DNA from: Kiloniellaceae bacterium
Lineage (GTDB): Bacteria; Pseudomonadota; Alphaproteobacteria; Kiloniellales; J153
NCBI GenBank assembly: GCA_021776135.1
Contig: JAJFGL010000056.1
Coordinates: 1-64,000, forward strand
DNA length: 64,000 nucleotides
Direction of reading: 5' to 3'
Positions 56,708-64,000 of the stretch are shown in pieces. Every line of letters starts with the position of its first letter. Within the stretch, counting starts at the first letter, position 1. Both the position numbers and the translations under genes were made by a program. Under the pieces are notes generated by a model, which saw nothing but the letters and a program-made list of their open reading frames with translations, searched no databases and was not told the DNA's origin.

Positions 56708-57709
56708 ATGGCGCAGATGATCGATCCCTTCGGCCGGGCGATTTCTTATCTCAGGGTGTCGGTCACCGACCGCTGCGATTTCCGTTGCGTCTATTGCATG
56801 TCCGAAGACATGACCTTTCTGCCCAAGGCGGACATTCTCTCGCTTGAGGAGTTGGAGCGGGTGTGCGGCGCCTTCGTGCGCCAGGGCGTGCGCAAGCTGC
56901 GCATGACCGGCGGCGAACCCCTGGTGCGGCGTAACATCATGAGCCTGTTCCGCAATCTTTCCCGGCACCTGGAAAGCGGCGCCCTGGACGAGTTGACCCT
57001 GACCACCAACGGCAGCCAGCTTCACCGCTTCGCCCAGGATCTGGCGGACCTGGGTATGCGCCGGATCAATGTCTCCCTCGATACCCTGAACGCGGACAAG
57101 TTCGCGGCCATCACCCGCTGGGGCAAGCTGGAAAAAGTCATGGCCGGGCTGGAAGCCGCCAAGGCCGCCGGTCTGCAAATCAAGATCAACACGGTCGCCC
57201 TCAAGGGCGTCAACGACGACGAGTTCGACCGCATGATCGCCTGGTGCGGCGAGGAAGGCTTCGATTTGACCTTTATCGAGGTCATGCCCATGGGCGACAT
57301 CGGCGGCGAAGACCGGGTCGATCAGTACCTGCCGCTTTCGGTCCTGGAGAAGCGCTTGGACAAGACCTGGAGCCTGGAAAAAATCGACTACAAAACCGGC
57401 GGACCGGCGCGCTATGTGCGCGTGGCCGAAACCGGCGGGCGCATCGGCTTCATCACTCCCATGACCCATAACTTCTGCGAAAGCTGCAACCGGGTGCGCC
57501 TGACCTGCACCGGCACGCTTTACATGTGCCTGGGCCAGGAAGACGCCGCCGATTTACGCGCCCCCTTGCGCGCCAGCGACGACGACGGCCTGCTGGAAGA
57601 CGCCATGCGCGCGGCCATCGCGCGCAAGCCCAAGGGCCACGACTTCATCATCGACCGCGACCACCGGGGCCCGGCGGTCGGCCGCCACATGAGCGTCACC
57701 GGCGGCTGA
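56708..57709 (+). CDS. moaA: GTP 3',8-cyclase MoaA
   Basis: Radical-SAM enzyme of molybdenum cofactor synthesis (first step, GTP to 3',8-cyclo-dihydro-GTP). The N-terminal cluster C-x3-C-x2-C is in [10 protein letters not shown] (Cys23, 27, 30), and the C-terminal cluster is in [14 protein letters not shown] and YMC. The C-terminal Gly-Gly needed for activity is present (VTGG). It is 333 residues from ATG 56708; the GTG at 56699 is also open. No other mo genes are in the window. Confidence 0.97.
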
Positions 57710-57804
57710 ACCGGTACAGACGAAGCGCGGACACTATCGTTCGTACTATACGTCAAAGTCTGCTAGAATGACCGCTCCACGCTTGCGACCTGGAGTAGAC
57801 GATC

Positions 57805-58167
57805 ATGAAGGCGACGATGTTCGAGCGCTATGGCGGCTTCGGCAGCGTGCATCGCCTGGTTTTGGCCTTCTACGATAAAATGCTCGACTCCGACACCATG
57901 GCCCCCTATTTCGACCACATCGACATGCCGGCGCTCGTCGATCATCAGACCAAATTTATTTCCCAGATTATGGGCGGTCCGGCTCACTATACCAATCAGG
58001 TGCTGGAACAGATCCACCGCAATCTCGACATCACCCAGGAAGCCTTCGACGAAATGAATGCGATCCTGAAAGAGACCCTCGAGGATTTCAATTTCGAAAC
58101 CGGCGATGTGCAATTGATCATGGCCGACATCAAGAGCCGCCAACCCTATATCGTAAATACCAACTAA
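57805..58167 (+). CDS. Truncated haemoglobin, group 1
   Basis: A 120-residue haem protein of the 2-on-2 globin fold: MFERYGGFGSVHRLVLAFYDK with Tyr23 at the probable B10 distal position, Phe36 near CD1, and HQTKFISQIMGGP. The proximal F8 His is most likely His71 in QIHRNLDIT. It binds O2, NO or CO and lies 13 bases upstream of a PAS-adenylate cyclase, so it may serve as that enzyme's gas sensor. Confidence 0.92.
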   Translation: MKATMFERYGGFGSVHRLVLAFYDKMLDSDTMAPYFDHIDMPALVDHQTKFISQIMGGPAHYTNQVLEQIHRNLDITQEAFDEMNAILKETLEDFNFETGDVQLIMADIKSRQPYIVNTN

Positions 58168-58180
58168 CCTGCGCCCGGCG

Positions 58181-59260
58181 ATGACAATGAAGCTCGATGC
58201 CTTCAACGAATTGCTGTTGGAAACGGTTGGCGTCGGGTTGATCATCGCCACCTTTCCCGGGTTGAAGATCATGTTCCACAACCACCGTGTGCTGGAATGG
58301 CTGCCCGCTTTCGATAACAGCGATGAGTCACTCGGCGAGCGGCTAACTGGACTTGACCAAGCGGCGCTGAGCGCATCGCTTGAAGAGGGTAAACCTTACC
58401 GGACGATAATCGAAGCCAAGGTCAAGCGGCGTACACACACGCTATCTTTAATCGCCACCCGAACCAATTTGAGCGACGATTCATGGATGGTTATCGAGTT
58501 GAATAACGAAACCAAGTTGCGCCAGCTCGAGGCGATGATCGCCTCATATTCCAAGATCGTCGAACAGCAAAACCGCACCCTTAAAAAAGAGAAGGAACGG
58601 GCCGAGAAGCTGCTGCTCAACATCATGCCGGAATCGGTTTACAAGGAGCTCAAGACCTTCGGCGTGACCACGCCGCAGCGTTTCGACGAAGCCTCGATCC
58701 TGATGCTCGACTTCGTCGGCTTCACCCAGCTATCGGTCGAGCACGACCCCGCGACCATCGTTACCGAACTGAACGACATTTTCACCGCCTTCGACCGCAT
58801 CGCCGAACAGCAGGGCTGCGAGCGGATCAAGACCATGGGCGACGCCTATGTCGCGGTCTCGGGCCTGCCCGAACCTTCCAACGACCATGCCCAATCGATC
58901 GCCCGCCTGGCGCTCATGTGCGTGCGCTATCTCAAGCGCCGCAACGCCAACCATAAAATCGCTTGGAATTGCCGGATCGGATTGGCGCCGGGGCCGGTGG
59001 TCGGCTCGGTCATCGGCATTCAAAAATACGTTTACGATATTTTCGGGCCGGGGATAAACCTCGCCGCCCGGCTCGAGACCCACGCCGGGCCCATGACCAT
59101 CCTCATGAGCGAAGAGATGTACGAGCGTCTGCGTTCCTATTTCCACATCGAGGACCGCGGCGAGGCGGAGATACGCGGCTTCGGGATCAAGCGGATCTAC
59201 GAATTGCTGGGCGCCGACGACTTCTCGCTCGACATCCAGCCGCCGGTCATCTTGGGCTGA
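58181..59260 (+). CDS. PAS-class III adenylate cyclase
   Basis: A 359-residue soluble signalling enzyme. A PAS-like domain (about 10-110) is followed by a signalling helix/transducer (about 113-160, NRTLKKEKERAEKLLLNIMPES) and the class III catalytic domain (168-345). Metal-binding Asp177 and Asp221 (MLDFVGFTQ, KTMGDAYVA), adenine-selecting Lys217 and Asp286, and transition-state Asn293 and Arg297 (INLAAR) are all present, so it should make cAMP, not cGMP. The cyclase order PAS-helix-cyclase resembles the C-terminal part of soluble guanylate cyclases, with the globin gene just upstream. Confidence 0.94.
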   Translation: MTMKLDAFNELLLETVGVGLIIATFPGLKIMFHNHRVLEWLPAFDNSDESLGERLTGLDQAALSASLEEGKPYRTIIEAKVKRRTHTLSLIATRTNLSDDSWMVIELNNETKLRQLEAMIASYSKIVEQQNRTLKKEKERAEKLLLNIMPESVYKELKTFGVTTPQRFDEASILMLDFVGFTQLSVEHDPATIVTELNDIFTAFDRIAEQQGCERIKTMGDAYVAVSGLPEPSNDHAQSIARLALMCVRYLKRRNANHKIAWNCRIGLAPGPVVGSVIGIQKYVYDIFGPGINLAARLETHAGPMTILMSEEMYERLRSYFHIEDRGEAEIRGFGIKRIYELLGADDFSLDIQPPVILG

Positions 59261-59269
59261 ATCCCGCGC

Positions 59270-59758
59270 CTATTCGATATCCACCCGGTGGGCGAAGTCG
59301 CGGCCGTTGCTGATGGTGATCTGCTGAAAGCCCAGCATCTTGGCCAAATCGAAAAAGGTGAAGGAATCCTGCACCCCCATCTGGGCGAAGGCCGGCAGTT
59401 GGCGCGCCGCCGCGGTCATGTTGGCGAAGATCGCCCGGGCCCGGAACAGGGTATCCAGACGGCCATCGACCAGGGCGACGATAATGAGTTTTTCCGCCTC
59501 GGCCCCCTTGGCGAAAATAGCGACCTGGGGCGGATAGGCTTTCTCGAACTGCTGGATCGCCGTGCCGGTCACGAAACCGATACGCAGGGCCCGGTTGGCC
59601 TCCGGCAGGGTTCGCGAGCGGGCGGTGTAAACCTCCTGGGTTTCAGGCTCCGGATAATAGTAACCGGCATGGCGGTCGGCGGCCCCGGCGGCGGGGCCGG
59701 AAACGAGGGCAAGGGCCAGGCAAGCCGCCAGGGCCGGGCGCGTGAAAATTCCACCCAT
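59270..59758 (-). CDS. Conserved exported protein
   Basis: A signal peptide (cleavage near residue 27, AAGAA-D) and a mature part with GYYYPEPETQEVYTARSRTLPEANRALRIGFVTG (shortened), PPQVAIFAKGAEAEKLIIV and FTFFDLAKMLGFQQITISNG. Similar proteins in other alphaproteobacteria are often mis-annotated as molybdopterin-guanine dinucleotide proteins; I see no nucleotidyltransferase motif. It is 162 residues and convergent with the cyclase gene. Function unknown. Confidence 0.8.
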   Translation of the reverse strand: MGGIFTRPALAACLALALVSGPAAGAADRHAGYYYPEPETQEVYTARSRTLPEANRALRIGFVTGTAIQQFEKAYPPQVAIFAKGAEAEKLIIVALVDGRLDTLFRARAIFANMTAAARQLPAFAQMGVQDSFTFFDLAKMLGFQQITISNGRDFAHRVDIE

Positions 59759-62369: not shown

Positions 62370-62882
62370 TCAAACATTCTTCGAAATATGATACGAGCGA
62401 ACTAGCAGGTTATTGGTCTTGAAATAGCGGAAATACAACACTCGCTGGATGGTGCCTCTCCAAACGCAAAGGCACGGACTCTCTCCACTTTCTAGTTCTA
62501 TGCCTCCAAGGATTGCCATAATTGGTTCACTGATTTGAGCTTCAGCATGTCTGGCTATTCGCCCCAACTCACGGCGATCCAACCAACTCATTGCCGGAAC
62601 GGCCTGACCTGGATGGGTGTGCCAATCACCTAAATAGGTTTCTCGTCCGCCAGTATTCCTGAAATGATCCTCGATTATTGCCGTACGGTATTCACCATCA
62701 GGTCGAAATCGATACCGGCTATGTTCAGCTTTCGGTCCCGGGCCAACCATTGTTGTTACCACATATTCGGTGCCGTTCATCCAGCCGATCAGTGATCCGC
62801 CCGTTTCATAAGGATGGGCTTCCTTAGCCTCTGCCCTGAGATTCCAGAGCGCCGAGTCAGAAATCCAAGCTATGTACGACAA
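62370..62882 (-). CDS. JAB/MPN-type (JAMM) isopeptidase-like protein
   Basis: A 170-residue Mov34/JAB protein with the JAMM metal site: Glu26 (YETGGSLIGW) and His88, His90, Ser99 and Asp102 in GDWHTHPGQAVPAMSWLD. Prokaryotic JABs next to E1-like enzymes cleave ubiquitin-like conjugates, as in CBASS Cap3, or process tail proteins. It overlaps the E1-like gene by 13 bases and lies downstream of it on the same strand, the order seen in Cap2-Cap3. GC content is below that of the core genome. Confidence 0.92.
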   Translation of the reverse strand: MSYIAWISDSALWNLRAEAKEAHPYETGGSLIGWMNGTEYVVTTMVGPGPKAEHSRYRFRPDGEYRTAIIEDHFRNTGGRETYLGDWHTHPGQAVPAMSWLDRRELGRIARHAEAQISEPIMAILGGIELESGESPCLCVWRGTIQRVLYFRYFKTNNLLVRSYHISKNV

Positions 62883-64000
62883 TGTAGGCAGTCATCGTAT
62901 CTGGGAACCGGAAAACTCTCCCATCTAGGCAACTGAAGGGCCCCGTCAAATTCCATACTAACAAAGGCGCTCTTCACATTGGCATTGAACGCCTGCACCG
63001 TCATTCGTAAAGCTTGTAGGCTTACCTCGGTAAGATCGAAACTCGCGCCGGTGAAAGTTGGATGGTTGCAGCCGGGCGGCAACACATGTCCGTCGATATC
63101 TTTCTTTGGTTCAGGAATCACTCCTTCATGGTAGATAGCTCGCTGTAGGCAAAACCAGCAGCCTTGCATGTCACCAGGGATAAAGCGTCCGACCATCCCG
63201 CCAACTGCGCCAGGGGTAGCAGATGCGAAAATATATGGGATATTCCCGTGAGCCGCTTGCGCAGACAGATACTGTTGTACTCCGACCTCGGCCGACGCAT
63301 CCACGATCAGGTCTGCCCCTGCTAGGGCCTGCGCCAATTTCTTCCGATGCTTCTTTGATTGCTCGTATTTGCCAAGTTCGGCGGTATCTCCGATGCGGAC
63401 ATTGAAAGGCTCAACACTGGCGTACGGGTAGTTGTCACGAAGAAATAACATCAGTTCGTCGCTCTTCCCAAAACCATAGCTGGGGAGTCCTAGGGGCCAC
63501 CGGATAGTGGGGCCAGGGTCCACAGTATCGCAATCGAGCAACCGCATATTTGCCCCGCAGCGCGTAAGATCAATAGCTATCGGCGCGCCCACCGCGCCAC
63601 ATCCGACCAGCAGAATTTTTTTCGCACGTAATGTGTTAACCGCAGGAACCCGTGCGCCGAAGTCGTTTAGTCCAGCACGATAACTGCGGATACGTTGAAC
63701 TGTCTCTTTTCCGGTATTCGCGTTTTTGCGAATCAAGAAAAACATCCATCCTGAGCCAGACTGGTTAGCCGCAATTTCCTCCGAGAAGGTGATTGCAACG
63801 ACAGCACATTTACCAACGCGTTCATGAGTAATCCAAATGCGTTTCCTGAGTCGCGGGCGCAGGATGCTGACAGCGGCCAGCTGCTCGCCTGGATCGTGGA
63901 TAAACTCCAGTCTTCCAATATGCTCAAAGGGCACCGTCAATCGCGTACTGAATCTGTTAGGACGATTGCCATGCCACTGAAAGGAAGTATTACCGCCGCC
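62870..64000 (-). CDS. E1-like ThiF-family adenylyltransferase (truncated by window edge)
   Basis: The frame stays open to the right window edge, at least 376 residues, so its true start lies outside. The ThiF/E1 adenylation domain has the nucleotide site LVGCGAVGAP, LLDCDTVDPG with the downstream Arg of TIRWPLG, and cysteines in CWFCLQRAIYHEG, PGCNHPTFTG (a likely catalytic or zinc Cys) and the terminal CLHC. About 120 residues precede the nucleotide site and may be the end of an E2-like domain or a linker. It is the partner of the JAB gene. GC content is lower than core. Confidence 0.9.
   Translation of the reverse strand, partial: GGGNTSFQWHGNRPNRFSTRLTVPFEHIGRLEFIHDPGEQLAAVSILRPRLRKRIWITHERVGKCAVVAITFSEEIAANQSGSGWMFFLIRKNANTGKETVQRIRSYRAGLNDFGARVPAVNTLRAKKILLVGCGAVGAPIAIDLTRCGANMRLLDCDTVDPGPTIRWPLGLPSYGFGKSDELMLFLRDNYPYASVEPFNVRIGDTAELGKYEQSKKHRKKLAQALAGADLIVDASAEVGVQQYLSAQAAHGNIPYIFASATPGAVGGMVGRFIPGDMQGCWFCLQRAIYHEGVIPEPKKDIDGHVLPPGCNHPTFTGASFDLTEVSLQALRMTVQAFNANVKSAFVSMEFDGALQLPRWESFPVPRYDDCLHCRT

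Follow-up and report, generated by a model that had tools for sequence, protein, structure and literature searches.

A conserved gene pair of Alphaproteobacteria joins the genes of a truncated haemoglobin and a PAS-containing class III cyclase and may encode a two-chain gas receptor

The window, by which we mean the whole 64,000-nucleotide stretch analysed (contig JAJFGL010000056.1 of a Kiloniellaceae bacterium), carries a gene for a short globin followed on the same strand by a gene for a cyclase with an N-terminal PAS domain (Table 1). A preliminary description of this DNA had reported the globin with the cyclase 13 bases on, and its coordinates for both genes proved exact to the base; the cyclase could equally well start at an ATG at 58187, and the nearest-Met reading of the related locus L038 begins at the matching codon. 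The same description had named a terminator and a separate promoter between the genes as evidence against a shared function, and a simple scan of positions 57600-59400 placed zero promoter or terminator sites in the 13-base gap. That scan did list a promoter-like site on the minus strand inside the globin gene and a terminator-like site on the plus strand inside the cyclase gene, with neither type exceeding its count in shuffled sequence. By eye, TGCTAGAAT can be seen at 57761-57769 on the plus strand, ending 35 bases 5' of the globin start codon; we take it to resemble an extended -10 promoter box, and it is absent from the promoter-scan listing for 57600-59400. Of 46 pairs whose 200 upstream bases were scanned for FNR/CRP-like palindromes, 2 gave a loose match, and no site was conserved. 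Globin and cyclase are likely co-transcribed, judging from the 13-base gap and from the 4-base overlaps between the two genes in relatives. Elsewhere in the window (62370-63940, minus strand), a ThiF/E1-like gene overlaps a JAB-protease gene, with matches to the PADLOC E1-E2 and JAB models; these genes are possibly part of a defence system extending beyond the window.

Table 1. The globin-cyclase pair and its parts, in window positions.
Feature	Positions	Strand	Basis
Group 1 truncated haemoglobin gene (120 aa); proposed haem gas-sensor subunit	57805..58167	+	Pfam; alignment to 3aq5
13-base spacer from globin to cyclase	58168..58180	+	Scan, no terminator or promoter listed
PAS - signalling helix - class III adenylate cyclase gene (359 aa)	58181..59260	+	Open reading frame; Pfam
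PAS domain, about residues 1-109 of the cyclase	58181..58507	+	AlphaFold fold; PAS_8 matches in relatives
Long helix, residues 110-148; signalling-helix/coiled-coil position	58508..58624	+	AlphaFold model
Class III catalytic domain, residues 164-345 (D177, K217, D221, D286, N293, R297)	58670..59215	+	Pfam; alignments

The globin has the features of a group 1 truncated haemoglobin: a Bac_globin match, His F8, Phe CD1, Tyr B10 and a short chain with Gly-Gly motifs. We file it with the truncated globins because it scores 56.2 bits against Pfam Bac_globin (cut-off 21), whereas its Protoglobin match of 12.8 bits lies below the cut-off of 25; the globin tree described below contains no sensor globins. 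Its top solved relative is the group 1 truncated haemoglobin 3aq5 (E 6.5e-11), and the other solved best relatives belong to the same group. Helix labels were mapped onto the window protein through the 3aq5 alignment, which is gapless, and we accordingly take Tyr23 to be B10, Phe36 to be CD1, Leu44 to be E7, Gln48 to be E11 and His71 to be F8. Tyr B10, Phe CD1, Gln E11 and His F8 do not vary in the globins of related loci (94/94), Leu stands at E7 in 85 of the 94, and the Gly-Gly motifs G10 G11 and G57 G58 are invariant; these counts, like those for 93 cyclases below, were made without the window itself (L001) and two loci with interrupted cyclase frames (L013 and L022), the partial L024 being excluded from the cyclase set only. 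The intact pocket residues suggest that the protein binds haem. Pockets of the Tyr B10/Gln E11 type bind O2 tightly and also support NO dioxygenation, and we know of no agreed role for many group 1 truncated haemoglobins. This globin is the sole Bac_globin match in its own genome.

The cyclase matches Pfam Guanylate_cyc with 156 bits, and its top solved sequence relatives are adenylate cyclases 9 and 8 together with bacterial adenylate cyclase entries. Its metal, adenine and transition-state residues had been described as intact, and all six are indeed present in the window and kept in 91-93 of 93 cyclases: D177, D221, D286, N293 and R297 in 93/93, and K217 as Lys in 91 and Arg in 2. We take D177 and D221 to be the metal residues, K217 and D286 the adenine residues and N293 and R297 the transition-state residues, an ATP-type set. 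The protein thus carries the two metal Asp, the adenine Lys/Asp and the transition-state Asn/Arg of class III adenylate cyclases, and, judging from these residues, its product would be cAMP made from ATP.

The order proposed for this chain, PAS-helix-class III cyclase, stood up as well, with the catalytic domain identified by Pfam and the PAS domain by its AlphaFold fold and by PAS_8 matches in relatives. In the full-length window cyclase Pfam does not call a PAS domain (PAS_8 at E 0.079, below the cut-off); 33 of 46 relatives match PAS_8 at E<=0.1, and the Novosphingobium cyclase does so above the cut-off. Predicted alone, the domain adopts a PAS fold (pLDDT 87.9, pTM 0.78), and its top PDB matches in two structure searches are LOV/PAS and general PAS domains. 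The full-chain model (pLDDT 86.3) shows the PAS domain, the helix at residues 110-148 and the catalytic domain, with a pTM of 0.59 that leaves domain placement unsure. The helix gives a weak match to the C-terminal part of HNOBA (E 0.019, below its cut-off).

The preliminary description had proposed a conservation check across Alphaproteobacteria and had held that a pair found only in this genome would count against a shared function. That it is confined to this genome is false: a full-length cyclase relative occurs in 17 of 385 genomes of the class (own included, E<=4.4e-84), and in all 17 a globin lies upstream on the same strand. A pattern-based scan of the genomes of 84,980 species returned 125 relatives, the best 80 of which were taken further, and in 79 of these 80 named loci the globin precedes the cyclase on its strand; the exception, L051, starts at a contig edge. 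A search of 398 genomes across the phylum gave 3 matches at E<=1e-70, own included, all from the class of the window; both this search and that of the 385 genomes scored up to five candidates per genome, so that lesser cyclases may be missing from them. Among 72,556 plasmid records, one carries a match. A locus labelled Competibacteraceae (L053) is an apparent exception to the class restriction. Another, labelled Polyangiaceae bacterium (L039), carries the moaA gene, pair and NAD kinase gene of the window at 80-90% protein identity, and since it keeps the flanking genes of the window its bin label is doubtful and probably wrong.

As a control, we read the tables of the cyclase search against the whole-genome globin search at 26 places in the 385 genomes where the match covers the catalytic domain only. 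None of the 26 has a globin match (E<=1e-8) within 10 kb; the nearest globin is 18 kb away, in G359, and some of the 26 lie near contig ends. Thirteen of them were also checked as loci and have globin-free flanks, which are short relative to the long proteins. A Fisher test of 17/17 against 0/13 was set aside as a headline figure, since related rows enter it and, at several of the 13 loci, the flank stops within the cyclase frame; 0/26 is used instead. The adjacency of globin and cyclase is far above chance.

The arrangement of the pair is equally constant. In all 96 loci with both ends present the globin precedes the cyclase, mostly at distances under a few tens of bases, and in 59 of the 96 the genes share a 4-base start/stop overlap, the usual arrangement of translationally coupled genes. 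These loci are not all independent, since many come from closely related Ruegeria and Leisingera species and L010 and L054 have the same first residues and lengths; thinning at 88% identity leaves 46 cyclases, and the overlap then stands at 17/45. The starts are nearest-Met guesses; those of L012, L013, L022 and L024, at least, are incorrect or absent. A fused globin-cyclase frame, which would be Rosetta-stone proof of the link, occurs in 0/96 loci. Across 30 long, thinned loci, no gene families but globin and cyclase occur at 30/30, with the next family at 13/30 once other-frame shadows of the pair are left out (the 12 shown being Rhodobacteraceae-type loci); the moaA and NAD kinase neighbours of the window recur in the available flanks of L038 and L039 only. 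The pair persists at a cyclase identity of 42-81%, with the spacing still close and the flanking genes differing. In comparisons with four relatives, dN is 0.12-0.21 against a dS of 0.67-0.99 for both genes, values by which globin and cyclase alike are judged to be under purifying selection. Taken as a whole, globin and cyclase form a two-gene unit that is conserved in Alphaproteobacteria.

In G027 (L022) both genes look damaged, with the first 45 globin residues not found and two stops in the cyclase frame, and in G208 (L013) there is one stop in the cyclase frame. On the Novosphingobium pentaromativorans plasmid pLA3 (L181:3640-7635) the pair genes lie 4 bases apart and are followed, 1 base on, by a PAS histidine kinase gene with a receiver and then by an overlapping response regulator gene, possibly forming one four-gene operon.

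We also asked how specific the link is from the side of each protein. A profile of the N-terminal PAS domain found 16 matches at E<1e-10 in the 385 genomes, all 16 in paired cyclases; it missed the seventeenth pair, that of G165, and gave one further weak match to another protein (E 8.7e-5). Among the candidates scored, up to 11 per genome, such that some PAS domains may be missing, this PAS type appears only in paired cyclases. Likewise, 16 of 17 globin matches at E<1e-20 in the same genomes are paired; the globin of G039 is unpaired, and the 12-kb stretch around it has no cyclase match. In a tree of 67 truncated globin domains, 46 paired globins and four others fall on one side of a branch of length 1.47 with 100/99 support, which sets 17 other truncated globin domains apart. 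Of those four, one is the Novosphingobium globin, which is paired, and three are unpaired (L129/L148, L135/L149 and L156), each without a cyclase match in the surrounding stretch examined. A strict "paired" label requires 3 changes on the tree: the paired globins make up a family that includes some strays and is not a perfect clade.

Residues typical of the paired globins and mostly lacking in 16 comparison globins are Phe12, Lys/Arg17, Asp46, His47, Thr49, Lys50, Asp101 and Arg/Lys112, and by helix periodicity some of them probably face outward. Lys50 was considered as a pair-specific contact, a case weakened by the Gln found in the paired Novosphingobium globin. In G310 (L149:5629-6437) an unaccompanied globin related to the paired ones leads straight into a frame of 146 residues with no Pfam match at E<=0.001, perhaps another type of globin partner.

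The linkage of the genes, the intact haem-pocket and ATP-cyclase residues, the PAS-helix-cyclase order, the paired-only PAS type and the purifying selection, all of them read from DNA, suggest one signalling unit of two chains, in which the globin would act in trans as a gas-sensing subunit on the PAS domain or helix of the cyclase and so place cAMP under gas control. We put the probability of this reading at roughly two in three. The haem of the truncated haemoglobin, flanked distally by Tyr B10 and Gln E11, would take up O2 (or NO or CO); the globin would dock, in one of its ligation states, on the PAS domain, the signalling helix or both in a cyclase homodimer; docking would alter the coiled coil and with it the rate at which the catalytic domain converts ATP to cAMP; and the cAMP might then be read by Crp/Fnr-type proteins. 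The genome has 11 matches to cyclic-nucleotide-binding domains. Haem binding, the cyclase dimer, physical contact, gas control, the direction of the effect and the identity of the gas are predictions of this model, and among gases we would favour O2 over NO. Against the model stand the 0/96 count of fused frames, the three unpaired globins on the paired side of the tree, the Gln at position 50 of the Novosphingobium globin, the unsure domain placement in the full-chain prediction and the occurrence of Tyr B10/Gln E11 pockets in NO-dioxygenating globins.

The main rival is a globin that consumes NO or O2 without touching the cyclase: an NO dioxygenase or O2/NO scavenger would set the gas level, the cyclase would be controlled otherwise, and the same stress would account for their shared operon. 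The pocket suits such a role, as Tyr B10 and Gln E11 with Leu at E7 (85 of 94 globins) fit the HbN type, and this is the pocket of the NO-dioxygenating HbN. A genomics paper reports proposals that trHbN proteins belong to a terminal oxidase or detoxify NO (PMC3770913). However, a scavenger would have no need of one particular cyclase family as its neighbour, and here the gene order is kept in 96/96 loci, 0/26 other cyclase places have a globin within 10 kb, and no third gene family accompanies the pair at 30/30 long loci; we regard consumption without contact as unlikely. Somewhat less probable still is that the PAS domain is itself the sensor, through its own cofactor or a small ligand, with the globin supplying haem or O2 chemistry to it or tuning expression. 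The domain does resemble LOV and other PAS domains in fold, and ligand binding is common among these. Over 46 rows Asn34 is invariant and Leu12, Leu13, Gly19, Trp40 and Arg84 stand at 90% or more, but these rows hold no conserved His or Cys ligand for haem or flavin, the highest columns being His at position 33 (30%) and Cys at position 107 (72%, Leu in the window). Cofactors can be held without such a residue; by this measure no haem site is evident in the unit apart from the globin. Neighbourhood by chance or history alone, with no shared function, seems highly improbable: the pair is largely co-inherited, with a globin-cyclase distance correlation of r = 0.80, calculated without reference to a species tree, that common descent alone might explain, but the flanking genes change between relatives while the pair stays, closely spaced, at 42-81% cyclase identity.

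Truncated globins also occur inside other signalling proteins. Four CheA-type kinases carry one internally, in the order Hpt - globin - kinase - CheW - receiver (L150:4116-7154, L151:4198-7314, L152:1854-5453 and L153:2396-5395), two globins being present in that of L152, and partial CheA-type kinases with a truncated globin are found at L157 and L158. At L154:4464-7328 a truncated globin forms the N-terminus of a PAS-containing chemoreceptor, and at L155:4477-6267 one lies at the C-terminal end of a frame of 597 residues that Pfam otherwise leaves unmatched at E<=1e-5. We found no account of globin-CheA fusions in the part of the open-access literature that our search covered, where the one paper listed concerns another subject. 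The globins of these kinases and of the chemoreceptor lie across the long 100/99 branch from the paired globins; that this class has such domains within CheA kinases and in a chemoreceptor nevertheless makes a signalling role for the paired globin more credible.

A broader interpretation, for which we see even odds, is that Alphaproteobacteria possess a split gas receptor in which a detachable truncated haemoglobin supplies the sensor subunit, in trans, to an adenylate cyclase coupled through a PAS domain. Such a receptor would be a cAMP-making, globin-based counterpart of soluble guanylate cyclase (sGC) of separate origin, set within a wider employment of group 1 truncated globins in signalling. 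Pairing across the class with a single cyclase family provides a group 1 truncated haemoglobin with a definite partner, and with gas-controlled cAMP as a function open to direct test. If the interpretation is true, sensor and enzyme of a gas receptor could be mixed in a tube, which would help in studying how a haem signal passes through a PAS domain and coiled coil to a cyclase.

The preliminary description had likened the pair to sGC. The likeness holds for the order PAS - helix - class III catalytic domain and, as proposed here, for the coupling of a haem gas sensor to a cyclase; taken alone, the PAS domain matches LOV and general PAS domains best (sGC is absent from the 50 matches listed in each of the two structure searches, an absence that excludes nothing). 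Residues 4-345 of the full-chain model align with residues 274-660 of human sGC (8hbe_A) at Z 24.2 over 321 positions, with an rmsd of 9.1 that indicates a like order and not a like arrangement, and chains with a catalytic domain alone match the model as well as or better than 8hbe_A. The sensor of sGC is an H-NOX domain, whereas here it would be a truncated globin on a separate chain; H-NOX (HNOB) has no match in the window cyclase or its own genome. Guanylate cyclases owe their guanine specificity to Glu/Cys, whereas the cyclase of the pair has the adenine-type Lys217/Asp286, and each of its chains carries a full catalytic set.

Stand-alone bacterial H-NOX proteins share operons with their effectors. 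They resemble the pair in that a separate haem gas sensor acts on a separate enzyme, a kinase or a diguanylate cyclase/phosphodiesterase (PMC8738867); in the pair, by contrast, a globin replaces H-NOX, and the output would be cAMP instead of c-di-GMP or phosphotransfer. Control of a signalling enzyme by a globin is shared with globin-coupled sensors and with Leishmania HemAC-Lm, listed as an O2-sensing soluble adenylate cyclase (PMC12755159), and a survey of the signalling helix places a globin domain among the neighbour domains of that helix (PMC1592074). Globin-coupled sensors are described as single chains with an N-terminal 3-over-3 globin (PMC1457004), whereas the globin here is, by its Pfam scores, a 2-over-2 truncated one on its own chain, with globin and output in one frame at 0/96 loci. 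With the group 1 proteins HbN, cyanoglobin and Tetrahymena trHb the paired globins share sequence family and distal and proximal haem residues, but they form a group of their own that includes three unpaired members. To our knowledge, HbN, cyanoglobin and Tetrahymena trHb lack a cyclase partner. A paper on Roseobacter denitrificans trHb places glbO near nitrogen-metabolism genes, and the word "cyclase" does not occur in its text (PMC4319818). A description of the globin-cyclase pair is likewise absent from the matches listed by our search of titles and abstract openings in the open-access literature, a scope distinct from subscription journals and preprints. The pair lacks a defining feature of sGC (H-NOX) and one of globin-coupled sensors (a single chain); with no H-NOX, an ATP-type site and separate chains, it would work in the manner of sGC or of H-NOX/effector pairs while belonging to neither class.
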